Of a stretch of 64,000 nt of DNA, positions 2,849 through 52,215 are shown piece by piece (the stretch's first letter is position 1; each line of letters begins with the position of its first letter). The stretch is from Pisaster brevispinus (taxonomy: Eukaryota > Echinodermata > Asteroidea > Forcipulatida > Asteriidae): the NCBI GenBank assembly GCA_023634235.1, contig JAMKCF010000001.1, forward strand, positions 8,558,758 to 8,622,757, in the 5' to 3' direction. The notes under the pieces were generated by a model, which saw only the letters and a program-made list of their open reading frames with translations, was not told the DNA's origin and did not search any database. The position numbers were made by a program, and so were the translations under genes.

Positions 2849-2947
2849 GGTCTAATTGGGGATTTTTGAAGTACTTTCTCCACACAGATAAACTACCTAG
2901 ATAGTACTGCATGCGTGCTGTTAATGTTTACGTTTGTATCAGTGTTA
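2849..2947 (-). promoter_or_regulatory. Short upstream region of the DUF6589-like gene
   Basis: Only 99 bp separate the start codon of the minus-strand gene from the transposon end at 2948. The segment ends with the 6-bp target duplication GTGTTA at 2942-2947. No TATA box is obvious. Any original promoter was therefore either very short or was split by the insertion, with its remainder now beyond 16823. This is inferred from position only. Confidence 0.35.
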
Positions 2948-2975
2948 TACGAAAGCCCATTAGTGCCATCGCAAG
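2948..2975 (+). repeat. Left terminal inverted repeat (28 bp, perfect)
   Basis: These 28 bases begin TACGAAAG and end CATCGCAAG. They are the exact reverse complement of 16790-16817. The next base differs (A here, T on the other side), after which the 31-bp repeat array follows. The adjacent outside hexamer GTGTTA is duplicated at the far end. Confidence 0.9.
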
Positions 2976-2979
2976 AACA

Positions 2980-4345
2980 TATTCAGCCAATCTTGTTTTT
3001 TGGAAGTACATATTCAGCCAATCTTGTTTTTTGGAAGTACATATTCAGCCAATCTTGTTTTTTGGAAGTACATATTCAGCCAATCTTGTTTTTTGAAACT
3101 ACATATTCAGCCAATCTTGTTTTTTGGAAGTACAAATTCAGCCAATCTTGTTTTTTGAAACTACATATTCAGCCAATCTTGTTTTTTGAAAGTACATATA
3201 CAGCAAATCTTGTTTTTTGAAAGTACATATTTAGCAAGTCTTGTTTTTTGGAAGTACATATTCAGCCAATCTTGTTTTTTGAAAGTACATATTCAGCGAA
3301 TCTTGTTTTTTGAAAGTACATATTCAGCGAATCTTGTTTTTTGAAAGTACATATACAGCGAATCTTGTTTTTTGAAAGTACATATTTAGCAAGTCTTGTT
3401 TTTTGGAAGTACATATTCAGCCAATCTTGTTTTTTGGAAGTACATATTCAGCCAATCTTGTTTTTTGAAAGTACATATTCAGCGAATCTTGTTTTTTGAA
3501 AGTACATATTCAGCGAATCTTGTTTTTTGAAAGTACATATACAGCGAATCTTGTTTTTTGAAAGTACATATTTAGCAAGTCTTGTTTTTTGGAAGTACAT
3601 ATTCAGCCAATCTTGTTTTTTTGAAGTACATATTCAGCCAATCTTGTTTTTTGGAAGTACATATTCAGCCAATCTTGTTTTTTGAAACTACATATTCAGC
3701 CAATCTTGTTTTTTGGAAGTACATATTCAGCGAATCTTGTTTTTTTAAAAGTACATATACAGCAAATCTTGTTTTTTGAAAGTACATATTTAGCAAGTCT
3801 TGTTTTTTGGAAGTACATATTCAGCCAATCTTGTTTTTTTAAAGTACATACTCAGCGAATCTTGTTTTTTGAAAGTACATATTCAGCGAATCTTGTTTTT
3901 TGAAAGTACATATACAGCAAATCTTGTTTTTTGGAAGTACATATTCAGCCAATCTTGTTTTTTGGAAGTACATATTCAGCCAATCTTGTTTTTTTGAAGT
4001 ACATATTCAGCCAATCTTGTTTTTTGGAAGTACATATTCAGCCAATCTTGTTTTTTGAAACTACATATTCAGCCAATCTTGTTTTTTGAAACTACATATT
4101 CAGCCAATCTTGTTTTTTGGAAGTACATATTCAGCAAATCTTGTTTTTTGAAAGTACATATTTAGCAAGTCTTGTTTTTTGGAAGTACATATTCAGCAAA
4201 TCTTGTTTTTTGAAAGTACATATTGAGCGAATCTTGTTTTTTGGAAGTACATATTCAGCCAATCTTGTTTTTTGGAAGTACATATTCAGCCAATCTTGTT
4301 TTTTGGAAGTACATATTTGGCGAGTCTTGTTTTTTGGATATTTTT
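2980..4345 (+). repeat. Left 31-bp tandem array (about 44 copies)
   Basis: The unit reads approximately TTCAGCCAATCTTGTTTTTT followed by GGAAGTACATA, 31 bp in total. Copies vary at a few positions (GCCAATC, GCGAATC, GCAAATC, TAGCAAGTC; GGAAG, GAAAG, GAAAC). The TTAGCAAGTC variant recurs at 3231, 3386, 3572 and 3790, spaced by about 5, 6 and 7 units, which shows a higher-order organisation. Because 31 is not a multiple of three and the unit has no stop in this direction, all three frames stay open with a 31-residue protein period. The resulting open frames are almost certainly not genes. The array ends near 4345 with TTTGGCGAGTC. Confidence 0.93.
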
Positions 4346-5240
4346 GTCCCCCATCCTGACATCGCGCGGCGTCGGGTGCACGACGTGTGAGGGCGCATTT
4401 GACATGATGGTCTCTTCGGATCAGGTTTGCGGCGGATTTTGTTATTTTTTCTTTACATCTTTTGCATGATTTAGTTTTTAGCCAAGTTATGGTTGATACG
4501 TACGCCATTGTTTTCAGCTTTGAGGCTGTACCCCTTCACTTTAGAGACGATAACAAGGTCAAACAAACTATATTTTAAGAATGTTAATGCACCGTATTTA
4601 GGCCTATGGTTTTACTTTTCTTACCTGTGTGCGTATTGTGTATGTACGGTGTGTGTGTCAGCAACAGTTTAACACGTTCTTACATTGGTTAGGCACAGCG
4701 TACTCTAAAGTTAGGATTGAGTTTGAAGTCTTAGGTCTAGGCCTAAGATTGGTCTATCAAAAGTACCGCTCAGGGAGCTCCTTTGATTTGTTGAATATAA
4801 TGACTCTTAATGAGCTAGTAGGCTCCCTATAATTGATAAGGTAGCCTTGAAATATCTACAAAGTACAATGATCAGCATCCTGTTTTATAAAAAATACATG
4901 ATCTGTCTTGCACCAAACAATCCCAACTTAAAGACATGTTATGGGGTGCCTGTTAGCAGGTTAGTACTAGTAGTAGTAGTAGTGCAAGTGACAAATATAA
5001 TTTTAAGATTAATGGAGTCTTGATTGGAGTCTGGGTACCATCTGTAGGCAGCCTACTGAAAACTGTGAAAACACCAGAAAGACGTTATCCACAGAATGCC
5101 TTTATTATTGATTAGCCTTTTAGCAATTTAGCCTTCTTACTGTTGTATAAAATACTGTTATTGTATATAGGTGAAAGCTACTGTTTCAAATTTTTTTGAA
5201 GTCAGTGTTCCTTTAAAGTTGTACTTTTTTTCTTTGATAG
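4346..5240. other. Internal left region of the transposon, no recognised exon
   Basis: A locally GC-rich stretch (about 4350-4440) follows the tandem array and then AT-rich sequence up to the first recognised HECT-gene exon. It is in the right place for the promoter and 5' UTR of that gene. A GATCAG/GTTTGC donor-like site lies near 4425, but I cannot support an exon. Confidence 0.3.
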
Positions 5241-5257
5241 GCTCATCATCAGCTATA

Positions 5258-6710
5258 ATGGATCTCTTCCAATTTATGAGGGACAGGGCCATCTCAGAAG
5301 TAACCATAGACAGAATGAAGAAAGAGAAGGTATACACACTCTTGATTTTACACTGAAATAGTGCCTTTGCATATTTTTCTTCATCAAATAATACTGCAAA
5401 CCTGTCTGTTTGATATTGCGAATTGTTTTAATCTAATTATGTTACTCTATGAGGGTAAGGTGGGCCTCCCAGTTTTGGACATTATAGTTTACAGTTAGTG
5501 ATAAACTTAAAACAATAATTATAATGAGGTTTACATTTTTTATTTTGCAAGGGGGCACTTTGCAGTTTAAAATTCCTATTCGAGCATGCATGTTATACAT
5601 TTTTTAACACATCAATTGTTGATGGAATATGAAGTGCATGGTACAAATGTATGCTTAATCATCAACATAGAAAAAGACCCCATCAAAGCAATATATGGCA
5701 TCATTCAGTAGTCATTTCATAGTGCATGTCACTCTTCAAAATAAGTACATTTTACAATTCCATGTTTTATTTAAATCTGAAGAAGTTTTGGTTGGTGTGT
5801 ACTTGAAAAAACAAAGCCCTTTCTTAAATCCACTAAAATTGGTGTGTCTATTAAAACAAAAAAATTGCAAACATTTAAAACCCCCAAGGGCCATAAAAAA
5901 TTATTGCACATTAACTAACCATGCACATTATTGGTGATGAATCTGAAACAATCCAAGGCTCAAAACTGACATTGAATATTCAGATGTTTGAGAAGGCTGC
6001 CAAATGAAATTTTCTGAGCATTTTTTTCAAAAAATATAACATTTTTTGTCTGCAGATTGATGAGAGAACACTACTTCTTATTGAGGACAAAGAACTTAAA
6101 GCATTCATTCCACACCTGGGTGACCGAGTGGCACTGAAAAGTTTCTGCAAGAAAAGGATGAAGCAATCGTCGTCCAGTGATAGTGAAGATACTGAGAAGG
6201 GGGAAACTCCTGCAGAAACTCAGAGTGAAACTGCAAAACAAAAGAGCTGGTGGTAAATCACAAGCTCCAAACTTGCACCTTGTTGGTAACAAACATGCCA
6301 AACGCACTACACGAAAAATAGACATTGGGTGGATGCATTACGATGAAGTCCAAAAGCAATACAAGCCGGTCAGGAAACAAAATGGGGGAGGGACAAGAAA
6401 ACTGTCAGTATGTAAGTCGTCAACAGCAGATACCCTACAAAAAATTGCAGAAGGCCTTTTTTTCAAACATGGCAAATCCTCCAAAGGATCGTTGGAATCG
6501 CATGAAACCCAACTTACTGACGTTGGGCACCAAGTGGTGGCGAGCAGTGCTACACTGGAAGAGCTGTATGAGGAAGCAAAGATGACAGTCCTACGATTGT
6601 ATCTGAAAACGAAACACCGTGATGTGGAGAGTGAAGAGGAAGAAGCTTTTGACTTGTGGGATACCCCAGAAGTAGAAGTGGAGACCTCAACGGAAGTTCC
6701 TAAGGATCAG
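5258..6710 (+). other. SAM-like region and GGGTR domain (HECT-gene exons 1-2)
   Basis: Exon 1 (24 codons, MDLFQFMRDRAISEV) and exon 2 (from IDERTLLLIEDKEL) join across GT-AG to give a short helical segment ending IPHLGDRVALKSF. This fits the last helices of a sterile alpha motif (DEDLKEL...GDR..L pattern), a likely protein-interaction module. A Ser/Asp/Glu-rich linker follows. The first frame stops at a TAA near 6254; the downstream frame, open from 6177, carries GWMHYDEVQKQYKPVR, GGGTRKLSV and a VRLYLKTK-like end, a block I associate with transposon-type HECT proteins. The switch is +1 between about 6177 and 6250, and no intron of plausible size explains it. Exon 2 ends at GATCAG/GTATTT (6710). 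Confidence 0.62.
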
Positions 6711-9374
6711 GTATTTTGGAGTTGATGGATGTTTTCCTCGTAGAAAGGACTAACAAAACCAATTAGCGGCCTACAGGCAAAGTTAGAAAATTATTTTATT
6801 TATCAATTGACCAAGTAAACAAGACAGTATAGCAAACATTTTCATCAGTTAGTGGAAGTAGAAACATCACCCTTAGTAAAGCTGTACACGTTCTTACATG
6901 CCTAAAACAAGTAAGTATAGGTCTACAGGAACTGACTGGTCAACCTCAATTCAAGTGTGGACAACAACTGATTCTAAACCATTTATTTTGTCTTCAGCAA
7001 AACTAGCTTTTTCAAAATACAGTGTTTTTTTATACTGACTAAGACTTAGGTGTCACGAATCTGATCAGTTGTAAATAATACAGTCATTAACTGGTACAGG
7101 TGAACACCATGTCTGCATGATTATATTATTTTTCTTATCTTGTGTAAAGTTTTGCTGCTGTTATTGTTATTGTTATTAGTACTATACTGTTACTTTTATT
7201 GTTCTTGTCACATAGCATTCAGACATGGAAGCCAGCAGTAGTTTTGAGAAAACTGATACACCAACCATTCTGTTTCGTAACCGACGTCAGGTAAGATTAG
7301 TATAGTTTAGCATTATGCGTTGAATGAGATAGCTTTGTCTGCATATCAACTCCCTCAGTTAAATAGATGTTAAATTTGCATCACTAAAGAACATTATTTG
7401 GTTTTACCCCTCCACCGATGTGTGTAAAGCACTGTATACTCAGTACTTTCCCTGAGTCCTGTGAAAAAAAACCACAGGCATATTATTCGGGTGGGATTCA
7501 AACCCACTCTCTCAGTGTTGGCAATATGCAAGAATGAAGAACTGCACTTTTCTCCTCCATGTTACCAGTATTTTTTAACATTTGACATTTGATATTTCGA
7601 AATAAATTATGGTCTTTCATGACACTTACATTTGATCATGAGTAAAAGGAAAGAGCTTAAAATTAAATGGTTCACATTGTTTGTTTTTTCTTACTAAGGA
7701 GTGTAATGTACCATGTACTGGCAGTACATACCAGTCCTACATGGAAATTCTTGACAGTGACAGTGATGATGAAGAAGCTTCACTAGCTGCTGCAATTGAA
7801 GCAAGTTTGAACGACGTCCAGCCACCACCAGAACAGAGGTAATGTTGATCTATATAATCCTTACCCATGAATTTTGTTCAGGGGATATATCGCACTGTTT
7901 TTAAATTTCAAAATTTAAATATACATTTATTTCATACACTCCTTGACAATGTAGTAATATTTTCACTGCAAAACAAATGGATTTCAAGAAGGACTCTCTT
8001 ACAGTAAAGGGAATGTAGTATGGTATTACATTTATGCAAATTAACAAAAGTGGGAGTATGAGGCTGTTCAGACAAGCCAAAACTTGTATGCTAGGTTCAC
8101 GAAGGACAAACAAAGCGGACTTGACAATCCTATATGAGAAAAAATATGCATGCCAGGACAAAGAAAGAAAAAAACACACACCAACAAACAAACAAACAAA
8201 CAAATCACAACCAAACGAATGAACAGACAAAACAAACAAAATAGACAGACAGACAGATAAGAGAACTCTTGTAAGAAGATTTCAATTGTACATATCTGTG
8301 GCATTTCTTAGGTCAGAATGTTTATAGTCCAACATAGTAATATGATAAAAATGTTGTGTTTAAAATTCAAATATTGTTGACATCAGTGATAAATTGACTT
8401 GTCTCGTTAATTGAAATGATACATGTATAACAGAATGGTGATGATGATGATGATGATTATTTTTGTCTTTATCCAAATTATAAGAATTATATGCTATGTG
8501 GCCTCTTCCCCTTGACATATTGGACAAACAAATTTTATTTGTTTTTTGTGGTGGTCAATAAATAGGAAGGAAATGTATGCAACAACCACATTTCTGACAT
8601 TCACAGTTGATTTTGTTCTTGACAGTCTGTGATTGTGAATGTACAAGTTCTTAACTTTATACTGTTACTTATGGATGCTATTATTTCAGTTTGTTGGTTT
8701 ACCCTCCATTATTTCTAACAGAACAGAGAAAACGCTGCATCAAATAATTTCACGAGTCGAGCAATCAGTCACAGGAGATCCCATAATGATCATTGCATAT
8801 AGAAAAAGGTTACTGAAGTCAGCTCTACATGCTACTCAAGCCCGGGGATTCAGTTTTGATAGACCACCTTGTGTGACATTTGCCGGTGAGGAGGCCGAGG
8901 ATGAGGGTGGCCCAAGTAGAGAATTTTTTAAGTAAGTGCACATGTTTTAACCAGAATTGTACGAGACAGTTTTTGCTATAATATTTGAATATTTCAGTTT
9001 GATTTTCTTGTGTTTCAATTGTCTTGTTTTGTTTCATCTCTTCACCTACAAATACTTCCTAAGTATCCAGCCCCCTCTTCCTCCCTCGATTATTCCCAAC
9101 ATGCTCACCTTCTCTTATCTTGCTTTACCTATCCTTTTTCCATACTCCCCAACAATACCACCTTTAGGTCAAAGAACTAGACTACTAGTTTCTTTTTATT
9201 ATTACCCAAATTTCATTATTTTGCTAAAAAAGTTGGAAAAATCTGACACAAACTGCTCCCATCTTAAGCACATAAAAAGGTCCAGACCAGTTGTACGGTT
9301 GGTATTTTTGCAGCTTCCAAGGAAAAGAAGGAAAGAACAATACATCAAACCAGTTTTGAAAAAGCAGTTTGTGT

Positions 9375-9405
<31 letters not shown>

Positions 9406-12400
9406 GGGAGGTGGTTAGGTATCCACATTCAAACTGTGACCTATAACAAAAGGGACAATAGGTCCACGGTTCGGGAAAGGTCAACGGTTGGAAATCGTGT
9501 ACAAAACCAATGGGAGCTGTTTAAAAAAGTATAAACAAAAGAGGGACAATAGGAGGTCCATGATTGCAGGCTGTTACACGCTTGTGTGAACACACCCACC
9601 AATCCAACAGAACAATGGACCCCACAAGGGAATTCTTTGTGGAACCTGGACCCCACAGGAGAATTCTTTAGAAAAGGGAATAATAGAACAACAATAGCAG
9701 GACCCCACAAGCCACCATCGGTAAGGGTGTGTGTGTGTGAGTTTGTTTTCACATTCAAACCGGGGACCTATAACAAAAGAGGACAATAGGGTCCCCGGTT
9801 GGGTAAAGGTCCCCAGTTAGAAATTGTGTACAAAACCAATGGGAGCTGTTGCCAAAAAGTTAGAGTCCAAACAAAAGAGGGACAATAGGAGGTCCCCGAT
9901 TGGAGGTGTTTACACACTTGGGTGTGTGTGTGTGTGTAAAGGGCTGCATTTTCCTTGATGAGAAATAATGAATAATAATGAAACAAATTAAAAAATCCTC
10001 ATCAAAATTTGATAATTGGCTGACGAGAAACTAGTCATCTACTTTCATTAGCCTTAATTTGACCTCTTTTTTATCTGCCCATTCCCCACTTAACAGGATT
10101 CCACAAGAAAGAATTAAGAAACATAAACACATTTGAAGATGTTTGTTTGTCTTGTGTTGGAATGTAAAAAAATTACAGCGCAATATAGGAAAGAGAATTT
10201 ATTGGTCATTCAGTGTTTTTTTTTCTTCATATAATTATTAGCACCCACTGTCTGGTATCACAAACCAACTATAATTTATTTTCATTTGACTTTTTTCTCT
10301 CAACGTACGCAGGTTGCTAATACAAGGCGTTGCATGCATGGACATCTTTGATAGTAATGGAGGCAGTCTTCAATTTAGGTATGATGTGGAACACCTGAGA
10401 AAGGGGACGTACAAGACAGCTGGTCAACTGATACGCTGGAGCTTGAGCAATGGTGGCCCTGGGCTGAATGGCCTTAACTCATCCGTGTTTGAGGCCATGG
10501 TTGGGAAACCAGATGTTAGTCTGAGTGAGGTGGACAACATCTCTGATACAGCATTTCGTGCGAATGTTAAAAAGGTACTTATTTAAAAGGTGATTACATC
10601 ATTAGCAGACATGAAAGTACTTCCAAGTTAATCAAAAAAACTTACTGACCAAAAGTTCAGATTATTCTGAAGTGACATTACACTTTGCTTTGGCACCTTG
10701 TCCAAACCATTCTGGGAGAACTTGCAGGGAAATTTCTCAGCAGTTGGTTTTCAATTCAAAGTATCAGTAAGCAGGCGCTAGACAATTTGTTTCCAATAAT
10801 AAAATACACCCACAACATTTTCTGCAATGATATGCCCTTTATGGAAAAACAGTTCCACAAGTTGTACAGGAATGGTTCTGACAAGATCAATCAGCAGTTA
10901 AAATTAAAACACACCTTTAAATCAATCTTATATCTGTGAAATTGAGCTATGGCCCTTTTTTCTTCAAAACTAGCACACAGATGACTAATCTTAGTTATCT
11001 CATCAATTATACCATTACTTCAGCATATGTCACTTGCTTCAAGTGTGTTACATGCACAAACAAACACCAGAGGGTCCTGATATAAGCTCTTGCATACTCT
11101 TAGCACATGTGCACATTTTGTAATACTATATATCCCCTCTTATGTAGCTATACAGTAGAGTTGTTACAAAATTCTTGATCAGAGGGCTTTAAAGCCATGT
11201 TTTTCTTGACTTTTGGTGTCAGGGCCATTGTTGGATATTGATGGCATTGATCATTGTACTGTTCTGATGATAACATATCTATATATGGATATACTCAACT
11301 GCTTAATTTCATTATTGAAGCGTAAGTCATCTCAGAGCAATGCAGGGTTGTTAAGTGCCAAGGATATCCAATTCTTATAAGACCCACAGGCTTAAAAAGG
11401 GAGTGGGTGCTGTAGAAATGGTTAATGTGGGGTGTGGATACTCAAGTAACAGTTTCAAAAGAACAATTTACCACCATGGGGTGACCAATAAAGAACAACA
11501 ATTTGCTTAAAAACAAATAGGCCTGCATTAGATGGTGCCATTAAGCAGTTTCTGATAATACAAAATTAACAGAGTCTATAAAATATCTAAAATAGGACTT
11601 AAATTAATATTACACTTATGATGGAAGGATATTTGCAAAAGCCATATTTTTTATAGGATACTCAATTATTGAGTCTTTATGTTTGTGTTTTTTACTTTTT
11701 TCTTGTTTTTCTTCATGCAGCTTCAGGATTGCTCTGCTTCACACATGGCAGCAACCGTTGAAGAGCTTACTGACTGGTTGATAGACCAAGGAGTAACAAA
11801 AGTCACTGGGGTTGAGAAAGAAGACATTGTACAAAGCCTGTTAAATCACTACATGGTTTATAGGTGAGATTATCTGGTGAATGCACAATGCAAATCTCTT
11901 TAGATGTATTTCAAGATTAGTACAATTGATGATAATTGTTTTGACATTGATACTTTTATTGTACCCTACCATTCTAGAGTTGTTTGCTTCAGTGTATCAA
12001 ATAGCAAATATGTAACTATCAATGCATCATGCGACCAAGCAAGGATTAGATTATTCACTTTTTTCTTTTTTGATATTTATAACATTGGTGCGCTCTTCTT
12101 TTCAAATGATCTTAGTCTCAATTTTTACAAACGATTGAAGATTTCATTGCTATTCAATCAGGGTTCAACCAGCCATGACTCATTTTACCAATGGTTTAGG
12201 AGAAGATCTATGGTGCGACATTCAACAAAATCCGCACACAACTAGCTGTCTGCTGGTCAAAAATGACATATCGTTGACACCCAAGAACATGAAGGAGCTG
12301 TATCAGGTTGAGTACTCTCCAGAGGGGTCAAACAAGAAGGCTGCTGAAGATGACACCATCTATTGCTTTGAAGTTTTCCTTGAAAATTGCTCAAGTAAGT

Positions 12401-12871
12401 ACAGTTTAAAGACTGTGACGTTGATTTTGATTTAATGTGCAGATTTATTACAATGTTGACATTTACAATAATGCATTTCAATAATCAGTCATCACTGTGA
12501 CAGTCACTAAATTAAAAACAATATGTGAATTAACAACTGGAAACCCAATCAAAACATCTTGTGTATAATAAACAAACAATTGTTGTTTTGGGGTGTTTTT
12601 TGTTTTGTTTCATGGCAACAAGCTACAGGGCATGTTACATTGACTCAGCTGCTTGATTTCTGGACAGGAGCAGACTGCATTCCTCCATGTGGGTTCAAGA
12701 AACGTCTTATGGTTGGATTTTAACACTGCTGTAACAGGCATCAGGCGATTGCCATCTGCACACACATGCGGCCCCACATTGTGGCTTCCAAGAGCAGTCG
12801 ATGATCCTGATGAGTTCCACCGCATGATGGAAGATGCTATCCTCAACTGTCAGTGTTTTGGGAAAATATAA
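5258..12871 (+). CDS. SAM-UIM-HECT ubiquitin ligase (G2E3-like), transposon-borne, two frameshifts
   Basis: Nine exons follow from splice sites and protein similarity: 5258-5329, 6056-6710, 7216-7290, 7699-7838, 8722-8931, 10313-10574, 11721-11863, 12162-12394 and 12623-12871, about 680 codons. Junction phases agree. Order: SAM-like segment (residues 1 to about 60), acidic linker, a conserved GWMHYDE...GGGTR domain (exon 2), a ubiquitin-interacting motif (exon 4) and a C-terminal HECT domain (exons 5-9). HECT E3 ligases take ubiquitin from an E2 onto a Cys and pass it to substrate. The HECT start (GGPSREFF) and the catalytic Cys in LPSAHTCGPTLWLP (codon 12767-12769) are both present. The architecture resembles the G2E3-like genes expanded in fish and invertebrates. 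Two +1 frame changes (about 6180-6250 and 12710-12725) break the frame as given, the second just before the catalytic Cys. It is a recent pseudogene or the assembly has indels. The start ATG at 5258 follows an acceptor at 5240, so an upstream exon may exist. Confidence 0.78.
7420..7560 (-). repeat. Possible tRNA-derived SINE in a HECT-gene intron
   Basis: On the minus strand, GGGTTTGAATCCCACCC (around 7487-7503) resembles the B box and T-arm of a tRNA. It is followed by a hairpin and AGTACTGAGTATACAGTGCT. This layout is typical of tRNA-related SINEs of invertebrates. An A box is not clear, and only one copy is visible in the window. Confidence 0.4.
7699..7838 (+). other. Ubiquitin-interacting motif exon of the HECT gene
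   Basis: This exon encodes an acidic run followed by LAAAIEASLND. It fits the UIM consensus: four acidic residues, then hydrophobic-x-x-Ala-x-x-x-Ser-x-x-acidic. A UIM binds ubiquitin weakly, as expected in a ligase that builds or recognises chains. Acceptor (ACTAAG/GAG) and donor (CAGAG/GTAATG) are canonical. The 2-nt overhang joins exactly to the acceptor at 8721, restoring Arg-Thr-Glu. Confidence 0.7.
9365..9955 (+). repeat. (GT)n/(G)n microsatellite and duplicated GGGACAATAGG repeat in a HECT-gene intron
   Basis: A GT run passes into a run of about 20 G (9370-9410). Two related blocks then follow (about 9425-9590 and 9750-9930), each containing CCTATAACAAAAG, GGACAATAGG, GTACAAAACCAATGGGAGCT and ending in a GT-rich stretch. 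The block between them (about 9595-9745) has a repeated ACCCCACAAGG / GAATTCTTT motif. The same motifs recur at 23590-23940, so this is a dispersed minisatellite-like family. No coding evidence. Confidence 0.7.
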
Positions 12872-14583
12872 CTGTCTGTTCTAATAGAAACCTGTAGTTT
12901 CTTTTTCAGTCTCACACCCTGTTTAATTACAATTACAACCCATCACTGTCTGATCATTCAATATTTACTCTACCATATTCCTAACCAAATATTCGACCCA
13001 AGTATTAACGATCTAAAATATTTAGATGAAGTGATTTTAGAGATGGTAAAGATGCACTGAAGTTGAATTGTGCTAAAGTGAGTGTATGAAAAAATTGAAG
13101 AGAAAAATTTACATGAGCTTATTTAGATGTTGCTACACCCCTGGGTTTTTATCATCATATATCCACCACCACCACCTATATTTTATACTTTCAACACAAA
13201 GCATTTTTCACTGGCATTTTCAAGGTATTTGGGGAAAATAGTTAATGTAAACAAACTAAACTTAGAGAATCTGCAACAAAATGGTTGATACAAATTTAAG
13301 TTGGATACTGCAACATTTACATACACAGTAGCCCCTAAAATGTAACAGCTTCAGTTTTGCTAATCAAGATGATGTCATAGGAAAATAACCACTGTTAAAT
13401 CATGTTGATCATTTTTACTCACACAAACAAATAATAATTAGATCTTAGGAAATATCAGTTGTGAAAATATCACAGGACCCATTAGCAAAATTGTGGTGTT
13501 TGAAATTACAAAAATTTGATGTGATGACTTCATCGTTGGTGATTGGTTAAAGGTGATTCATTTGTTGGGCTCGTTCTTGCCAAGTTAATTTTATGTTTAT
13601 GTAATTGTATTAAACTTGTTACTAACACTAGTTTTGAAGATAAAAGTCAGACGTGTATTGTTTGTTTATGAAAAAAAAAAGTACAAAGCTTTATAATGTA
13701 TGAAAGGTGAGACTCTGTAGAAAGCCTTTTGTGAAAGCAGTTAAATCATGTGTATAATCATATACTGTAAACAGATTTACCAACACCACAACATTGGCGA
13801 TGTTAACATTATTACGTACTTTGTTTAAAATCAGAAACACTGGATGTGATGACCTCAACGTTGGTGATTGGTAAAAGGGCACTTGTTTGTTTGGCTTGTT
13901 TTTTGCCAAGATACTTTTATTTTTAAGTAATGTATTAAACTTGTTACTAGTTTTGAAGATAAAGTCAGCTGTGTATTGTCTCTTTATGAATATCCCTTCT
14001 TTTCGGAAGGGATAAAATTGTGGAGCCTACTTTTAACTTGGAAAAGTGCTCGGGTGGGGGTAGGCGTAAAAAAAATGAAACCAGTGATCAGGCAAATTTC
14101 AATTACGGAATTGTGTAGATATTTAATTTATGATCAACATTACTTTGAAAGACACCTTCAAAAAAACTGCACAGGCAGGTAGTATCAAATTTAATGGCTT
14201 TCAAAATGGAAATTGACAAATAAAGCAAGACAAAATATCAATGCATACAATTTAAAACAAAAATGGTTTTAACATGAATGTCTACTCTAACCAAGGATTG
14301 TCATTTCCATTAACAATCCCCACACCCTGTGTTGTTAGGTCCAAGCAAAGACCAAAACTCTGAATGAGTACATATCCAGATTGGCTTTATTCTGTCTGTC
14401 TGGTATAACACAACAATGAATTTAAAATAAAATTAACAGAGTAAATCGATGCCATGCCACACTATTTTAAAGTATTAATATTTCAATCTTGATAGTTCTG
14501 TCCCTTGTCTTCATAACAGTACAGATTATGGGCTATTTTAACAAACCGAAGTCTTCAAATGTCATTTGCCTGCATGATTAATG
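12872..14583. other. Intergenic interior of the transposon between the convergent genes
   Basis: AT-rich sequence between the HECT stop at 12869-12871 and the transposase stop at 14584 (convergent genes), so it should hold both 3' UTRs. Apart from the duplicated block at 13500-13990, no coding or RNA feature was recognised. Confidence 0.5.
13500..13990 (+). repeat. Imperfect direct duplication (about 150 bp, spaced about 330 bp)
   Basis: The block from about 13517 (TGTGATGACTTCATCGTTGG to GTGTATTGTTTG, about 13665) is repeated from about 13846 to 13985 with roughly 85-90% similarity by eye. Shared segments include GTATTAAACTTGTTACTA and AGTTTTGAAGATAAA. A remnant of tandem duplication inside the transposon. 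Confidence 0.7.
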
Positions 14584-15827
14584 TTATATTTGTTGCAGTA
14601 GAGTTCTTCTAAGGAAGTGATATAGATGAAGTCCTTGCTGAGCATTACTTGGCTTATCAATGCCTGCTTCATTCATCAGAAGAGTGCACAGTTTAAACAC
14701 ATCCTTGTCACATGGAAATCGACTTTTAAACTGACACTCGGTTTCACATACTTCTACTTCATCATGCTGTACAGGAACAGTATAATCTTGCGTTCCATAC
14801 AGTTGGGGCACAGTGTACATCACCATAGGTCGACCGAAGGGACCATGCCGATTTCTTGAGGAAGCTATTCTGTGAGAGTTCCACTCCTTCACGGTAGTGT
14901 CAATATCATCCTGTATTAGAAATGGAGATGAGTTGTTCAGGTAGTTAAATTATTTGTTGTTCACAAAGTCAGAAAGTGAAACGTCTTCCAATGATGTCAC
15001 ATACAAATTTTTACAAATTACTGAGGCTTTGTCAAACTAGGAATGCCTAATCATTATAGTACCTGGATTAGATTCACGAAGCACAACTGTATTAAAGATG
15101 TATCCTGGAAATCGCCACTGAAATGACCATCATCTTTAAGTTCTTCAAATAAGTTCATCCAATACTGAGTGCAGTGTTTCCGAAATACACTCCACCAACA
15201 TTCGATGCGCTGATTGCTTTGACTGGTACCTTGAAGAAAACTCCTGTCTCCTGCAAACGCATCTTGGCAATTAGTTCTCATGAAGTGTTGCATTTGTCGA
15301 ACTGTACCATTTTCAGTTCCAAAGTCTGACCGAATTACTCTCGGACATCCCATTTTTGCCCTTACCGTTTTCATATAAGAACCAGCAATGACACTGGGAT
15401 CACTATTTGTTACGTAAGCTTCTACCCAAAGCACGTTTCTGGAAAAACCATCAATGCAGCCGTTTATACAAATTCCATACGGTTTCAGTTTATCATACGA
15501 GTCCAAGTGCCATAAGAAGTTTGGACCGCTTACGTGATATCTGCGTCTCTGAAGCCGTCTCCTTGCCCTCTGTTGAACGCCTTCTGGATCTAGTATTCCC
15601 AGCAGAAGGCGCACTGTTTCTCTATCAATACTGATACCATTCCGGTTAAGATGCCGTTTGCTTATGATTATGTTATTGTTTGCAAGAAGCGATGCAATTA
15701 TTTCATCGTAATTAAGCCCTAAATTAAAGTAATGACGAATTAATTCGTTATTCTCTGCTATCGGCATGGCTGCATTTACAGACCAAAACATATGGCTAAC
15801 AGCGCCCTCATGAACATCGCCAAACAT
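14584..15827 (-). CDS. Integrase-like DDE transposase, two exons
   Basis: Exon 1 runs from about 15827 to 15063 and exon 2 from 14910 to 14584. The intron 15062-14911 has GT (GTACTA) and AG (ATACAG) ends and joins in phase 0 as LIQ/DDIDTT. The N-terminus has a helix-turn-helix-like segment (FNLGLNYDEIIASLL). The catalytic core is rve/IS3-like: first Asp in WHLDSYDKLKPYG, second Asp in IRSDFGTENG, and the Glu in NQRIECWW about 40 residues later. Exon 2 adds the conserved SSRNRHGPFGRP and LYGTQDY blocks. The core is fully open. The start is uncertain: ATGs at 15827, 15791 and 15767 are in frame, and the reading frame continues upstream into the 31-bp array, so transcription probably begins within the terminal repeat. 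From memory, relatives have roughly 45 more residues between the N-terminal helices and ETVRLLLGILDPEG, so a small internal deletion is possible. It should catalyse excision and integration of the surrounding element. Confidence 0.8.
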
Positions 15828-16789
15828 ATACTTCCAAAAAACAAGATTGGCTGAATATGTACTTCCAAAAAACAATAATTGCTAATGTACTTCCAAAAAA
15901 CAAGATTTGCTGAATATGTACTTCCAAAAAACAAGATTTGCTGAATATGTACTTCCAAAAAACAAGATTCGCTGAATATGTACTTTCAAAAAAACAAGAT
16001 TGGCTGAATATGTACTTCCAAAAAACAAGATTCGCTGAATATGTACTTCCAAAAAACAAGATTTGCTGAATATGTACTTCCAAAAAACAAGATTTGCTGA
16101 ATATGTACTTCCAAAAAACAAGATTGGCTGAATATGTACTTCCAAAAAACAAGATTGGCTGAATATGTACTTCCAAAAAACAAGATTGGCTGAATATGTA
16201 CTTCCAAAAAACAAGACTTGCTAAATATGTACTTTCAAAAAACAAGATTGGCTGAATATGTACTTCCAAAAAACAAGATTGGCTGAATATGTACTTCCAA
16301 AAAACAAGATTGGCTGAATATTTACTCTTAAAAAACAAGATTGGCTGAATATGTACTTTTAAAAAACAAGATTGGCTGAATATGTACTTCCAAAAAACAA
16401 GATTGGCTGAATATGTACTTCCAAAAAACAAGATTGGCTGAATATGTACTTCCAAAAAACAAGATTGGCTGAATATGTACTCTTAAAAAACAAGATTGGC
16501 TGAATATGTACTTCTAAAAAACAAGATTGGCTGAATATGTACTTCCAAAAAACAAGATTGGCTGAATATGTACTTCCAAAAAACAAGATTGGCTGAATAT
16601 GTACTTCCAAAAAACAAGATTGGCTGAATATGTACTCTTAAAAAACAAGATTGGCTGAATATGTACTTCTAAAAAACAAGATTGGCTGAATATGTACTTC
16701 CAAAAAACAAGATTGGCTGAATATGTACTTCCAAAAAACAAGATTGGCTGAATATGTACTTCCAAAAAACAAGATTGGCTGAATATGTA
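15822..16789 (-). repeat. Right 31-bp tandem array (about 31 copies), inverted relative to the left
   Basis: The same 31-bp unit as on the left, in opposite orientation, forming the long inverted repeat. This side is more homogeneous. Copies with TACTCTTAAAAAACAAG recur every 155 bp (five units) around 16325-16640, which shows recent local amplification. The array directly abuts the 5' end of the transposase gene. Confidence 0.93.
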
Positions 16790-16817
16790 CTTGCGATGGC
16801 ACTAATGGGCTTTCGTA
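16790..16817 (-). repeat. Right terminal inverted repeat (28 bp, perfect)
   Basis: The 28 bases ending GGGCTTTCGTA are the exact reverse complement of 2948-2975. The target duplication GTGTTA follows at 16818-16823. Confidence 0.9.
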
Positions 16818-16823
16818 GTGTTA

Positions 16824-21029: not shown

Positions 21030-23335
21030 AAACATTGATGCACACCCTTCTTACGAAACCTGCAAACGTTGACCCCCAAGTATTGTACTATGCCACCGTG
21101 GACATGTATAGTTTGGGCTTGTATGCCAACATGTCATCGTGGACATCTTGATAAAAAGGAATTCTTCAGTTACAAAACCTACCAAATTGGATCCATTTTT
21201 TTTTTAAACTTACAAACGTGGACTTCTATGTATTGTACTATGCCACCGTGGACATGTATAATTTGGGCTTGTAAGCCAACATGTCATCGTGGACATCTTT
21301 AAAAAAAAAACTGTTCATGAACATCTTGTACACACCCCTTTAAAAACCTACAAACGTGGACTTCTATGTATTGTACTATGCCACCGTGGACATGTATAAT
21401 TTGGGCTTGTATGCCAACACGTAATCATGGACATCTTGATAAAAAGGAATTCTTCCGTTACAATACCTACCAAAATGGATCCATTTTGTTTTCTTTTTGT
21501 TAATACTTTTCATGAACATCTTGTACACACTCGGTACTTTTCTTTAAAAAACTGCAAACGTGGACTTCTATGTATAGTACTATGCCACCGTGGACATGTA
21601 TAATTTAAGGCTTGTATGCCAACATGTATAATCGTGGACATCTTGATAAAAAGGAATTCTTCCGTTACAATACCTACCAAAATGGATCCATTTTTTAAAT
21701 AAAAAAAAACAAAACTTTTCATGAACATCTTGTACACACCATTTAAAAAACCTACAAACGTGGACTTCTATGTATTGTACTTTGCCACCGTGGACATGTA
21801 TAATTTGGGCTTGTATGCCAACATGTAATCGTGGACATCTTGATAAAAAGTAATTCTTCCGTTGCAAAACCTACCAAACTGGATCCATTTTTTTCTCTTT
21901 TTTTTTAAATACTTTTCATGAACATCTTGTACACACCCGGTACCCTTCTTTAAAAACCTGCAAACGTGGACTTCTATGTATTGTACTATGCCACCGTGGA
22001 CATGTATAATTTGGGCTTGTATGCCAACACGTAATCATGGACATCTTGATAAAAAGGAATTCTTCCGTTACAATACCTACCAAAATGGATCCATTTTGTT
22101 TTGTTTGTGTTAATACTTTTCATGAACATCTTGTACACACTCGGTACTTTTCTTTAAAAACCTGCAAACGTGGACTTCTATGTATAGTACTATGCCACCG
22201 TGGACATGTATAATTTAAGGCTTGTATGCCAACATGTATAATCGTGGACATCTTGATAAAAAGGAATTCTTCCGTTACAATACCTACCAAAATGGATCCA
22301 TTTTTTAAATTAAAAAAACCAAAACTTTTCATGAACATCTTGTACACACCATTTAAAAAACCTACAAACGTGGACTTCTATGTATTGTACTTTGCCACCG
22401 TGGACATGTATAATTTGGGCTTGTATGCCAACATGTAATCGTGGACATCTTGATAAAAAGTAATTCTTCCGTTGCAAAACCTACCAAACTGGATCCATTT
22501 TTTTCTCTTTTTTTTAAATACTTTTCATGAACATCTTGTACACACCCGGTACCCTTCTTTAAAAACCTGCAAACGTGGACTTCTATGTATTGTACTATGC
22601 CACCGTGGACATGTATAATTTGGGCTTGTATGCCAACATGTAATCGTGGACATCTTGATAAAAAGGAATTCTTCCGTTACAATACCTACCAAAATGGATC
22701 CATTTTGTTTTCTTTGTGTTAATACTTTTCATGAACATCTTTTACACACTCGGTACTTTTCTTTAAAAACCTGCAAACGTGGACTTCTATGTATAGTACT
22801 ATGCCACCGTGGATATGTATAATTTAAGGCTTGTATGCCAACATGTATAATCGTGGACATCTTGATAAAAAGGAATTCTTCCGTTACAATACCTACCAAA
22901 ATGAATCCATTTTTTAAATAAAAAAAACCAAAACTTTTCATGAACATCTTGTACACACCATTTAAAAAACCTACAAACGTGGACTTCTATGTATTGTACT
23001 TTGCCACCGTGGACATGTATAATTTGGGCTTGTATGCCAACATGTAATCGTGGACATCTTGATAAAAAGTAATTCTTCCGTTGCAAAACCTACCAAACTG
23101 GATCCATTTTTTTCTCTTTTTTTTAAATACTTTTCATGAACATCTTGTACACACCCGGTACCCTTCTTTAAAAACCTGCAAACGTGGACTTCTATGTATT
23201 GTACTATGCCACCGTGGACATGTATAATTTGGGCTTGTATGCCAACATGTAATCGTGGACATCTTGATAAAAAGGAATTCTTCCGTTACAATACCTACCA
23301 AAATGGATCCATTTTTTTTTATGATTTCAAAGATG
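21030..23335 (+). repeat. Satellite of about 203-bp monomers in a 609-bp higher-order unit
   Basis: Recurring landmarks are CAAACGTGGACTTCTATGTA, GCCACCGTGGACATGTATAA, GCTTGTATGCCAAC, CGTGGACATCTTGATAAAAA, ATGGATCCATTTT and CATGAACATCTTGTACACAC. Three slightly different monomers alternate, and the set repeats at 609-610 bp (for example from 21510, 22120 and 22729) with near identity. The first copies (21060-21500) are more diverged. GGATCCATTTT and the repeated GTGGACAT with its complement give hairpin potential. Open frames across the array follow the repeat and are not genes. Confidence 0.9.
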
Positions 23336-44964: not shown

Positions 44965-45740
44965 TCAAACTCGTCTTCTGATGCAGGAAAGTTCTGATCC
45001 CAAAGTGCCTTGCCCAGAGCAGATGTTGGAGAGGGAGCTGGAGACAGATCTGCGATCGGGACTTGGTGAGCTGGGGATAGAACTGACGAGGGAACAGGAG
45101 CTGGAGATGAAGGTAAACCAGCAGGGGTCGTAGCTAGTGACAGAAGAGGTGAAACTGGGGACTGAATGGAAACTGGAGATGGAGACGTCGGTGAAGATAG
45201 AGTTCTTGGTGAACGGACTGGAGATGGAGAGTCGATGAGAGAGATGCATGGGGGTGAGCCAGCAGGAGACGAAATAGTGGACTGAATGGAAACTGGAGAT
45301 GGAGACGTCGGTGAAGATAGAGTTCTTGGTGAACGGACTGGAGATGGAGAGTCGATGAGAGAGATGCATGGGGGTGAGCCAGCAGGAGACGAAATAGTGG
45401 ACTGAATGGAAACTGGAGATGGAGACGTCGGTGAAGATAGAGTTCTTGGTGAACGGACTGGAGATGGAGAGTCGATGAGAGAGATGCATGGGGGTGAGCC
45501 AGCAGGAGACGAAATAGTGGACTGAATGGAAACTGGAGATGGAGACATCGGTGAAGATAGAGTTCTTGGTGAACGGACTGGAGATGGAGAGTCGATGAGA
45601 GAGATGCATGGGGGTGAGCCAGCAGGAGACGAAATAGTGGACTGAATGGAAACTGGAGATGGAGACATCGGTGAAGATAGAGTTCTTGGTGGACGGACTG
45701 GAGATGGAGTCGATGAGAGAGGATGAGAGAGATGCATGGG
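44965..45740 (-). repeat. 120-bp coding minisatellite (about five units) in the Mutator-like gene
   Basis: Units start near 45740, 45640, 45520, 45400 and 45280 and are almost identical. Each encodes 40 residues rich in Ser and Pro, such as SPSPVRSPRTLSSP and TISSPAGSPPCISLIDS. The unit length is a multiple of three, so frame is kept. All three minus frames are open through it; only the Ser/Pro frame connects to flanking coding sequence. An indel in the first unit shifts the frame near 45710. SP-rich repeats look like a disordered, possibly phosphorylated linker. Confidence 0.88.
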
Positions 45741-45809
45741 GCTGAGCCAGCAGGAGACGAAACAGTGGATGGACGGAGGGGAGTGGAAGACACAACTTGA
45801 GCAAATCTT

Positions 45810-47888: not shown

Positions 47889-47966
47889 TTTTGGTGGCAG
47901 CGGTGGGATTTATCGACAAAAAATATTAAACAACAAAAATAAATAAACAAATAATAAGTTTTTGCA

Positions 47967-49185
47967 ATGGCCTCGGGAGGATATAATGTCGCCGACCAGC
48001 TGAACCGTACATTACGAATGCTAAAAAAGAGAACTGGACCAAAAGTTATCTACACGGTTTGGCTGGAATGGGTTCCGCCCCTTCGACCGTGGGAGATAGT
48101 CCAATATACCCCAGTCACATGTCCTTCCCCACGGGTAGATTGGGTGGTGCCCGGGGTGGAAATGCAGATGTACCAGCAGAACATGTTAGTGTGGATATGC
48201 CTGAGGCTGACATCAACGCAAACATCTCGAATTAGTTTTTCTCTGCCACGCCAAGCCCAAAGTTTGAGTGAGCGTGAACAGATTCCTGTACAAACACCTA
48301 CTAATACTAAAATAAGTGATACTAACTTTGGGGATTTTAGTTGTGACACAAGTTCACCCAGTTTGGTTGAACAGAAAGTAACAAAACCTGTTGTGCAGCC
48401 CGACAATTATGATGGAAAGACACCATTTGAAGACTGGCTTAGTCATATGGAATTGTGTAGTGAGATTAATAGTTGGAACATTACACAGAAAACTAGATTT
48501 CTTGCTGTGAAGTTGAGGGGTCCAGCATTACAGGTTTATACAGATTTGCCTGAGGCAAAGAAACACAGTTACACTGAACTTGTACGTGCTCTCAAGGAAC
48601 AATTTTGTCCTCAGGGACAAGTAGGTCTTCTCCGAGCTCAACTTAGAGCTAGGGGTCGTAGAAAAGAGGAGTCTTTACAACAGCTTGCTAGTGGTATTCG
48701 AAGGTTGGTTTTGAAGGCCTATCCTGATGTCTCTGGTGAATTCCGGGAAGAGATGGCTAGGGATCAGTTCATAGAGGCCCTTGACTTACCTGATGTAAGA
48801 ATACAGGTTCGACGTGCAAAGCCCCAAAATTTAGGTGAAGCACTGACTTTGGCTCTAGAGGAGACATTCCTTCAACTGGAATGTAATAAAGACCGTCTCC
48901 CTAAACAGGTGTTGGCCACTACTAATCAGTACACAGCTAATTCATTAACACAACAGAGTACCCAAGTGAATGAAGAATTAGAGAAATAGAGCAGACGTTA
49001 AGCGAGCTAAAAAGGGCACTAACCGCAGCACTTCACGCACTTTTCCATTTCCTTGTTGGGAATGTAAGCAAGTAGGACACAGAAGAGCACAGTGTCCCTT
49101 ACTGGTGCAAGCCAGTCTCTTCGGATAAGGGAAACAGCAGTGGACCGAGCAAGGGGCCACTGCCCAGTCCACAGTAAATTTCAAG
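47967..49185 (+). pseudogene. Gypsy gag with zinc knuckle
   Basis: From the ATG at 47967, 340 codons are open, with the capsid-like block YDGKTPFEDWLSHMELC, FLAVKLRGPALQVYTDL, LVRALKEQFCPQGQ and EEMARDQFIEALDLPDVR. The frame stops at 48987, and in a shifted frame CWECKQVGHRRAQC (49054-49095) gives a C-x2-C-x4-H-x4-C knuckle. Gag forms the particle and binds the element RNA. Confidence 0.75.
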
Positions 49186-49189
49186 GCCC

Positions 49190-50960
49190 AGTCTCCAGTC
49201 TACTTTGTCCATGGTGATGTTCATGGTATTAATGTGAAGTTTTTACTTGATACAGGCTCGTCAGTAACCATTATAATATCCACAGATCTGGGAGCAGTTA
49301 CCTCTAGATGTCCGCCATAGCCTACGTCCCTGTTCAGAGTCTGTAGTTGCTGCAGAGGGCACTACTTTACAGGTAATCGTTTGTACAGAAATGGTGGTTC
49401 GGTTTGGTAAGCTTCACAGACGTCATCTAATACTGGTCGCCCGTATTATGCAAGCAGGTATTATAGGGATGGATTTTCTGGTATCACATGAAGGGGTCCT
49501 TGACATTCCAAGACATAAACTTAGGTTTGGTAGTCAAGAAATTCCTGTATTTTTTGAGAGCTCACCGTTCACATGTTGTAGAGTTTCAGTAGCCGAAACA
49601 GTAACACTTCCAGCGGGTCGAGAGACAGTTATACCTGGGGAGTTGCACTTGAGAAATGGTTGTACGTCTCGAGGGGTTCTCGAACCCACTGGTCGCTTTA
49701 CTTGTAAAGATAATGGTGTGCTATTAGGCCATACTTTTGTTAGTACTGAGCAGAATAGAGTCCCCCTGAGAATTTTTAATTTACAACCGGAGGCATCTGT
49801 TTTGTATAAGGACACACAAGTAGCAATATTACTGCCGGCTGAGGAAGTGGTATATGAAACGGTAGAAACTGATAATGACACTGGTTTAGGTCCTGCCTTG
49901 AACAAATTGTTTGAACGTAGTTCCCAAAACTTGAGAGATGTTCAAAAAGATAAATTGAAGGAAATACTCTGTCAGCACCGTAGTACTTTTTCTGAGTCTG
50001 GTGAATTGGGTCAGACTAATTTAGTTTTTCACAACAGACACCGGCGACGCCCGTCCACGCCGACAACCAGCACGACGTTTGCCCTACCACCAACGTCCAG
50101 AGGCCCAAGCTCAAGTGGAGGATATGTTACAAACTGGTGTTATTTATCCGTCTAGTGGTCCTTGGGCAAGCCCAATCGTACTTGTAAAGAAGGATGGTTC
50201 CACAAGGTTTTGTGTAGACTATAAGAAGTTGAATGATGTTACATTTAAGGATGCCTATCCCCTTCCTCGGATAGATGATAGTCTTGACGCGCTAGCGGGT
50301 TTGAAGTGGTTTTCTTCTTTAGATTTGGCCAGTGGCTACTGGCAGGTAGAGATGAGTCCCCGTGATAAAGAAAAAACAGCTTTTACCACTGGAAGTGGCT
50401 TGTATGAATTTAATGTGATGCCATTTGGCCTCTGTAATGCTCCAAGTACTTTTGAGAGATTAATGGAGTTGGTTTTGGCAGGTTTGCATTGGAAGACATG
50501 TTTGGTTTATTTAGATGACATTTTAATTTATGCACAAACATTTGAAGAGCACACAGCACGCCTTAGTGAAGTCTTTGCTAGATTAGCTGCAGCTGGGCTG
50601 AAACTAAAGCCCAAGAAGTGTTCCCTATTCCAACAAGAAGTTGCTTATTTAGGCCACGTGGTATCACAGAGTGGAGTGGCTACTGATCTAGAAAAGACAA
50701 GGAAAGTCAAAGATTGGCCCACCCCCTGTAACCTTAAGCATGTAAGAAGTTTCATTGGCTTGTGCTCATATTTCAGGCGTTTCATTAAAGATTTCTCACG
50801 TATAGCTGCACCACTGTATAAACTAACCCATAAAGGCGTTGGCTTTAAATGGACCAGTGAATGTGAACATTCTTTTCAGATGTTGAAAGAAAAACTCACC
50901 TCAACGCCAATATTGGCCTTTCCAGATTTTCCTTCCTTTCATGCTAGATACAGATGCTAG
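49190..50960 (+). pseudogene. Gypsy protease and reverse transcriptase
   Basis: The protease active-site block FLLDTGSSVTII is near 49225-49270 in one frame, and the flap region GIIGMDFL is at 49455 in another. The RT (50079-50960) has PSSGPWASPIVLVKKDG, RFCVDYKKLND, SSLDLASGYWQVEM, FNVMPFGLCNAPSTFERLM, VYLDDILIYAQT (catalytic Asp pair) and YLGHVVSQSGV. Protease and RT are linked through a +1 change around 50080-50150. The RT core itself is open. Confidence 0.78.
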
Positions 50961-52215
50961 CGGAGAGGGGATAGGTGGAGTCTTGTCACAAATCCAGGGT
51001 GGGCAGGAGAAAGTGATTGCATATGCAAGTCGGAAGTTGAGTAAGAGTGAGCAGAACTGCAGTGTCACAAAGCGAGAACTACTTGCAGCTGTTCACTTCA
51101 TGAAGTACTTCAAACATTACCTGTATGGTAAGAAATTCACACTTAGGACGGACCATGGCTCGTTAAGATGGTTGTATAATTTCAAGGATGTCCAAGGGCA
51201 GTTGGCCCGATGGATAGAAATTTTGAGTACATTTGATTTTGAAATCTCCCATCGGCCTGGTACACAACATAGAAGTGCAGATGCCCTTTCAAGAATAGCT
51301 GATAACATTGCAGTGGGCTCTAGGGAACCACTGTCACAACAGCCTTCCTTGGTGACTTGTTCTATCAGTCATGTATTTTCAGGTTTGAGTGAGAATGAGC
51401 TACGGGAGGTCCAGAGGAGTGACAAGACGTTGCTTCCGATCATCAACTGGAAAGAGATGGGGACCAACAAGCCATCCCCTAGCCTGGTGATGTCCAGTAG
51501 CCGAGAAACAAGGGTATTGGTACCTCTGGGACCACTTGAATTGAGAGATGGGATTCTGTACAGACGTTTTGAGGTAAATTCTTCTTCCATTTATCAAGTT
51601 GTACCATCGTCAATGAGGAGAGATGTTTTGATTCAGGCCCATAGTGCCAGAACTGCAGGTCATCTTGGTCAAACAAAAACTTTGAAGAAAATCCAACGGT
51701 CTTTTTATTGGCTTGGGTATCGCTCTGAGGTTCAACGATGGGTCAGACAGTGTGAAGATTGTGCACGCAGAAAGTCTCCTTCAAAGGCACGAGCTGCACT
51801 GAAGACCTCGTCTGGCGGGGCTCCCCTTGAGAGAATAGCCATCGATATATTTGGTCCCTTGCCTAGGTCCAGGCGAGGAAATCGTTATGTTTTAGTTGTC
51901 ATGGATTATTTCACTAAATGGGCAGAAGCGTATCGCCTCCGTAACCAAGAGGCAGAGACCGTTGCAACAGTTTTGGTTGAACAATTTATTTGTCGTTATG
52001 GAGTTCCGTTAAGTTTGCACTCTGATCAAGGTTCCAACTTTTAAAGTCATGTTTTCCAATCAATTTGTGGGTTATTGGGTATTAACAAAACAAGAACAAC
52101 AGCCTATCACCCTCAGTCTGATGGACTTATAGAAAGGTTTAATCGCACAATTCAGACCATGCTGAGTATGTATGTAAGAGAAGATCAAGCAGATTGGGAT
52201 GTTCACTTGCCGTAC
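50941..52215 (+). pseudogene. Gypsy RNase H and integrase, truncated
   Basis: RNase H begins DTDASGEGIGGVLSQ, with TKRELLAAVHFMKYF, LRTDHGSLRWL and HRSADALSR. The integrase has an HH-CC zinc finger (HSARTAGHLGQ, CEDCARRK) and the catalytic Asp residues in AIDIFGPLP and LHSDQGSNF. A TAA at 52042-52044 then interrupts, and HPQSDGLIERFNRT carries the catalytic Glu after it. Coding similarity ends near 52215, before the integrase C-terminus. Confidence 0.8.

Follow-up and report, generated by a model that had tools for sequence, protein, structure and literature searches.

The window analysed here is a 64,000-nucleotide stretch of the genome of the sea star Pisaster brevispinus (C1:8558758-8622757, in an assembly of 549.7 Mb and 512 contigs). 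Judged from its sequence, the segment at positions 2948-16817 of the window is a DNA transposon that was recently mobile and the ends of which are long mirrored stacks of short repeats. Its features, including the target-site duplication (TSD), the terminal inverted repeats (TIRs) and two genes, are as follows.

2942-2947, no strand: left TSD, GTGTTA
2948-2975, plus strand: left TIR, 28 bp, perfect, with a TA terminus
2973-4336, plus strand: left array, on the side of the HECT gene, 44 units of 31 bp
4402-4425, plus strand: candidate for the initial coding exon of HECT (MMDSS...), immediately inward of the left array
5258-12871, plus strand: HECT-type E3 ligase gene, 9 exons
14584-14910, minus strand: transposase exon 2, including the stop codon
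15063-15827, minus strand: transposase exon 1 (DDE, rva_4, PF24764)
15829-16792, minus strand: right array, on the transposase side, 31 units of 31 bp, inverted
16790-16817, minus strand: right TIR, 28 bp, perfect
16818-16823, no strand: right TSD, GTGTTA

Beyond the 28-bp TIRs the inverted match between the two ends runs on, giving an arm of 798 bp at 93%. Tandem Repeats Finder reports 44.0 copies with a period of 31, 92% matches and 0% indels for the left array, and 31.2 copies with 94% matches for the right one. The window copy itself is damaged, with 135 bp gone from a transposase exon and two one-base frameshifts in the HECT gene. An earlier note on the window had taken the perfect terminal repeats, the GTGTTA duplication and the inverted 31-bp arrays as one mobile unit, and this is borne out by the same layout at other places and by empty sites, as described below.

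In the genome search with the left end 40 of 66 candidates were scored, so that the copy counts given here are lower bounds; the search was not exhaustive, the copy on C2 (L036) having escaped it and surfaced in the transposase search. The places examined number 21, that is, the window and 20 further ones. Both ends, of the TA..TA form and reading TACGAAAGCCC..., are present at 20 of the 21, with 0-2 mismatches in each 28-bp motif; L036 has a single end within the stretch examined, and L024 is a rearranged place. At 19 of the 20 two-ended places the 6-bp duplication is perfect, with 18 different sequences (GTTTTC occurs twice), so that the other copies with 6-bp duplications of their own that the earlier note expected do exist. 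The 20th, L026, is a 277-bp remnant with the flanks ATGTTG and ATGATG, equal in five of the six bases. Comparison of seven-base flanks gives equality in 0 of 17 cases, which says little because the equality of six bases already fixes the length.

The joined flanks of the window element match two places without interruption, C13:8762756-8762909 (99% over all 154 bases) and C1:12652342-12652494 (96% over 152 bases), and thus the boundaries of the insertion are real. Judged from the match lines, both are paralogous loci of this assembly and not the other haplotype in which an empty site had been predicted. It is scarcely credible that the element is an artefact of assembly or annotation, i.e., a collapsed or misjoined satellite with a chance TIR. 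Arrays are hard to assemble, and the exact assembled unit counts could be wrong for that reason, but the same layout with perfect duplications recurs at 19 places and there are two empty sites, which together rule out chance or an assembly artefact.

By size, the 19 copies divide into three long ones (the window copy, C16a and C12a; core 11.5 kb), 14 short ones (core about 2.07 kb) and the two odd copies C5a and C4b. In the 2.07-kb core the left inner edge is fused to the transposase gene at one breakpoint common to the short copies; C5a has a core of this type with an insert (3.3 kb), and the core of C4b is 0.6 kb. Most of the copies found are transposase-only derivatives with one internal deletion in common. 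Two copies, C18 and C10, combine a transposase gene of the long type with an inner edge of the short type and look recombinant by eye; in the tree of copies the branch of the C2 copy is unreliable. The HECT module was either inserted into a shorter ancestor or lost once from the long form, and we prefer the single deletion.

The transposase gene is on the minus strand and adjoins the right array. Its first ATG, at about 15827, falls inside a partial, degenerate copy of the unit at the array's inner edge; the earlier note had the DDE gene reading out of the array itself. Read through both exons in C16a, the gene encodes 408 residues and matches rva_4 at 3e-32, which is its sole Pfam match up to E 0.5. 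The candidate triad is D154, D213 and E254 of the 408 residues, the matching columns being invariant in 44 homologues, and no HHCC pattern was found upstream by eye. The alignment of exon 1 covered 17 copies, C5a and C4b being excluded. Exon 1 is open in C16a, C12a, C18 and C10, and 12 short copies have one common stop codon in it, with a second stop in one of them. In the window, 45 codons of exon 1 are gone in frame (135 bp at about 15641) by comparison with the 16 other aligned copies; a spliced intron as the cause of this gap was considered and rejected, since no GT..AG edges were seen and the missing part has residues that are nearly invariant in the family. A transposase of Patiria miniata, LOC119740150, has 71% identity over 75% of the query.

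The HECT gene, which the earlier note had missed together with the defects of the window copy while rightly describing the mobile unit, the foldback-type ends and the DDE gene, is present in the long copies and runs convergent with the transposase gene on the opposite strand. Its exons, the edges of which were set by hand with GT..AG introns, lie in the window at 5258-5329, 6056-6710, 7216-7290, 7699-7838, 8722-8931, 10313-10574, 11721-11863, 12162-12394 and 12623-12871. The gene is open throughout in C16a and C12a, encoding 678 residues, and the window gene has one-base frameshifts near 6199 and near 12722. The product matches the HECT domain of Pfam (PF00632) at 1.9e-14, and its closest solved relative is AREL1 (8.2e-11). 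The sequence TCGP, with the catalytic TC motif, is common to the four aligned proteins, and with this cysteine near the C-terminus ligase activity is predicted. The top protein match is from Patiria miniata, with 83% identity over the full length, and only five matches were obtained among 8000 scored candidates. A second HECT protein of Patiria, LOC119740149, and the transposase LOC119740150 are probably neighbours, as their gene numbers are consecutive and their contigs are equal in length. The first five residues of the candidate first exon at 4402-4425 are the same in the Patiria homologue P0121, and on this match the HECT gene would probably start at the inner edge of the left array. Among the sister families described below, a long copy of family B (L061) contains HECT exons, with three matches at 63, 52 and 44%, and a copy of family D (L062) has one weak HECT match (42%, E 4e-5). 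Because HECT exons lie in B and, weakly, in D copies, the pair of genes is older than the window family.

By its termini, TSD length and transposase type, and on features alone, the element fits a foldback-type IS3EU/GingerRoot cut-and-paste transposon. From the part of PMC10045372 available to us, IS3EU/GingerRoot elements have TA..TA ends, usually 6-bp TSDs, a DDE transposase with a first catalytic D located 100-300 residues in and no HHCC; here the ends are TA..TA, the 6-bp TSD is perfect in 19 of the 20 two-ended places, and the transposase is of the DDE type, lacks HHCC and has its first D at 154. The long inverted tandem-repeat termini of variable length place the element in the foldback structural class. 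Of the two affiliations named in the earlier note, IS3EU is thus the fitting one and Ginger1/2 is not, as the latter has TSDs of 4 bp or 4-5 bp (PMC10045372, same part) and the TSD here is 6 bp. Membership of another superfamily, whether Ginger1/2, a Mutator foldback or a Polinton-like element, we consider very unlikely. It is true that Mutator houses most foldbacks, as far as the consulted part of PMC4079207 goes, that TSD length alone leaves the MuDR/IS256 group (4-10 bp) and Polinton (6 bp) as candidates (PMC10045372, same part), and that IS3EU is not implied by the Pfam name rva_4. By contrast, the TA..TA ends and 6-bp TSDs occur together as in IS3EU/GingerRoot, rva_4 is the only domain matched by the transposase, and Ginger1/2 is at odds with the TSD.

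Known relatives also carry extra genes. The fungal TET-bearing IS3EU elements (PMC12730594) have extra genes and 6-bp TSDs, as here, with the transposase and alpha-kinase genes oppositely directed, and the portion of PMC10853768 at hand describes Styx, an IS3EU or IS3EU-related element, with the same two properties. Where these systems have alpha-kinase, TET/JBP or other genes as accessories, the element here has HECT. In one Styx subfamily a 32-bp tandem repeat flanks an insertion of 285 bp, and no end arrays are described in that portion. HECT, ubiquitin and tandem repeats are not mentioned in PMC12730594, and the words HECT, tandem and subterminal are absent from the main text of PMC10045372 in the part available. 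A literature search found nothing joining IS3EU with HECT, Repbase, where similar families may be deposited, being outside this search; the search with IS3EU, tandem and terminal inverted repeats gave no description of such ends in the text retrieved, and that with HECT, DNA transposon, transposase and E3 ubiquitin gave unrelated work only. What appears to be new is the pairing of a HECT gene with an IS3EU-type transposase and the family-specific end arrays of units with the length of whole helical turns, to which we now turn.

In the window family 1027 units were read over the 19 copies, with arms of 5 to 75 units. The spacing of neighbours is exactly 31 bp in 959 of 987 cases, two 26-bp interruptions being left out of the count, and the commonest base exceeds 95% at 27 of the 31 positions of the unit. 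Position 12 varies (C 53%, A 25%, G 22% and T 0.1% of the 1027 units) and provides a readable barcode of array history. The order of the units diverges strongly among copies, including C16a and C12a, the cores of which have only 13 differing sites in about 9.8 kb aligned. Since the order differs despite near-identical cores, turnover of the arrays is far faster than point mutation. The three long copies have 75, 87 and 106 units in total, versus 13-63 in the 14 short copies (core 2.07 kb), with an exact p of 0.0015; when C5a (104 units, core 3.3 kb) and C4b (68 units, core 0.6 kb), both of which are contrary, are included, p is 0.004. It is thus suggestive that longer copies carry more units, with ancestry as a confounder. 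The earlier note had called these arrays kilobase-scale satellites. The size is right for the left array (2973-4336), while the right arm falls slightly short of 1 kb, and the label is not quite right, because the array matches listed among 465 all fall within the 21 places studied; on the same ground, and within a search that was not exhaustive, capture of a free satellite by the transposon was rejected.

The array design, with other units, recurs in sister families, which had also escaped the earlier note, as had the prevalence of transposase-only copies. The transposase search gave related families at 72, 67, 59, 52, 51, 49 and 42-44% identity, and their tips, where found (families B, C, D, E, G and K), read TACGAAAGCCC, TACGGAAGCCC or TACGGAGCCC. 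The array unit is 21 bp long in families B, C, E, G and K, 31 bp in D, F and H, and 53 bp in I. By match coordinates, inverted arrays are present at both ends in family B (e.g., C1:14261973-14274909 and C24:4802514-4804776), in family D (C16:6751505-6762253 and C7:19382286-19393495) and in the high-copy family E. The unit of the window family is unlike all sister units (z 2 or less), and clear likeness is found between the units of F and H, between two G units and between those of C and K (z 5.5-6.9), so that there are about eight unit groups, with some uncertainty. The 21-bp units C, K, E and G and the 53-bp unit I are self-complementary above shuffles (z 2.7-3.6), and the 31-bp units A, D and F are not, with the 21-bp unit B also an exception; this perhaps distinguishes dimer from monomer sites. 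It is also noted that 40 of 78 rva_4 match rows lie on C1 (at about 7-26 Mb), a contig that makes up about 6% of the assembly, although some rows are pieces of one locus and two are of the window family. This may reflect low recombination or a graveyard character of C1, or a preference of the search for early contigs.

The transposase side was surveyed at 31 loci outside the window family (L050-L060 except L057, and L064-L084). Arrays occur at 23 of the 31, with a unit of 21 bp at 16 loci, 31 bp at six and 53 bp at one, and 77,153 bases of control DNA contain no array of at least 4 units of 12-60 bp. In L064-L084, the 21 loci that were chosen after the pattern had been noticed and by transposase match only, 14 have an array (12 at 21 bp, one at 31 and one at 53), six have none and one is equivocal; the last nine loci give arrays at eight, six of them of family G and two of family K. 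Arrays seem to be a feature of the closer relatives, and the distant ones may be without them. The lengths of 21, 31 and 53 bp correspond to 2, 3 and 5 helical turns, and they belong to the few whole-number lengths, 6 out of 46 in the range of 15 to 60, that depart from a multiple of 10.5 by no more than half a base. This clustering of unit lengths at whole helical turns is a strong suggestion, not a proof. Phased A-tracts were rejected as a common feature, several units having none by eye.

Based on these data, we consider it probable that the element is a foldback-type IS3EU transposon in which the arrays serve as docking platforms that present the transposase on one face of the DNA. The transposase would cut at the conserved tips of the TACG(R)AGCCC type and dock on many array units; with units of whole helical turns (21, 31 and 53 bp) the sites would face one side of the DNA, and the transposase could line up or multimerise over the length of each arm and bring the two ends together, multimerisation having been suggested for Galileo in the part of PMC3688188 available. 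Each family would change the sequence of its unit along with its own transposase and keep the turn-length spacing. The twelve short copies with the common stop codon presumably moved in trans. The arrays may also be promoter regions, since an inner array edge is where the transposase gene starts and where the HECT gene probably does; possible targets of the HECT ligase are the transposition complex or host silencing. The broader proposal of an animal IS3EU lineage that has phased docking-array ends, replaces the unit sequence with the transposase and has its own HECT ligase acting on the complex or on silencing is put forward tentatively.

A number of observations weigh against this interpretation. 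No array is present within about 1.5-1.7 kb at seven of the 31 loci (L056, L064, L071-L074 and L081), L065 is equivocal (53 bp with 2.1 copies, 65 bp with 3.1), and of the loci counted at 21 bp L083 has a reported period of 20 with only 3.0 copies and L075 is degenerate, with only 70% matches. Among the five loci taken from the PF24764 list, which that model places farther away, four have no array and one has a degenerate one. Loci of one family are not independent, eight of the 23 array loci being of family G; the period may be inherited rather than re-selected, and weaker likeness in seven other unit pairs of the 45 tested (z 2.0-3.8) makes common descent possible. In the window family 28 of the 987 spacings depart from 31 bp (16 at 28 bp, nine at 30, three at 32 or 33). 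The helical phasing was noticed post hoc in families that are not fully independent. Finally, phasing is no rule of foldbacks, because Tm1 of root-knot nematodes, as described in the accessible part of PMC3169594, uses repeats of 13-15 bp; its TIRs, as here, are largely composed of short tandem repeats whose number varies, and it differs also in its 9-bp TSD and in being a Mutator foldback.

Arrays of this kind could, alternatively, be selfish by-products of slippage or unequal exchange, with function residing in the tips only and the period reflecting the birth of the array and not binding. Array length and unit order indeed vary greatly between near-identical cores (41/46 units in C16a, 66/40 in C12a), and the TIR repeats of Galileo likewise expand and contract (PMC3573991, part available). 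We nevertheless judge this origin unlikely: clustering at 21 and 31 bp is seen among units that are not clearly alike, several families have arrays at both ends with the spacing kept while the length turns over, and none such occurs in the control DNA. It is quite improbable, too, that the arrays are mainly regulatory, i.e., promoters or enhancers of the convergent genes or silencing shields with no direct role in pairing the ends. The start of the transposase gene, and probably of the HECT gene, at the inner edge of an array is what such a role would give, and in the long copies TGAGGGCGC lies close to the start regions of both genes; by contrast, arrays on both arms are kept in short copies without HECT and in family B copies of 0.3-2.3 kb (by coordinates).

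The FB elements of Drosophila have 31-bp tandem repeats in their inverted arms. The docking of transposase on repeated end sites has a precedent in Galileo, an element of the P superfamily in Drosophila. Galileo has foldback-like long TIRs with tandem repeats and arms that vary, as here (PMC3688188 and PMC3573991, available parts), and the THAP domain of its transposase binds sites in the tandem-repeat TIRs (PMC3688188). It differs in having another transposase and, in one subfamily, a repeat of about 210 bp in at most 3 copies (same parts of both papers), versus 5-75 units of 31 bp here.

Elsewhere in the window, positions 21307-23321 hold a 404-bp tandem repeat in five copies (or a 205-bp one in ten), positions 45159-45769 hold five 120-bp tandem repeats within a long S/P-rich open frame, and positions 47958-52044 hold, by eye, retroelement-like gag and pol frames with reverse transcriptase and integrase motifs.

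The reason for kilobase-long repetitive transposon ends is an old open question, and several described foldbacks, e.g., Tetris, are without a known transposase, according to the consulted part of PMC4079207. In the present case one genome holds sister families, open genes, near-identical copies and differing units with a common spacing, so that binding, phasing and co-evolution can be compared side by side. With the HECT gene, the accessory genes known for IS3EU, in fungi alpha-kinase and TET/JBP, would come to include a ubiquitin enzyme, and this suggests an action of the elements either on their own complex or on host control.

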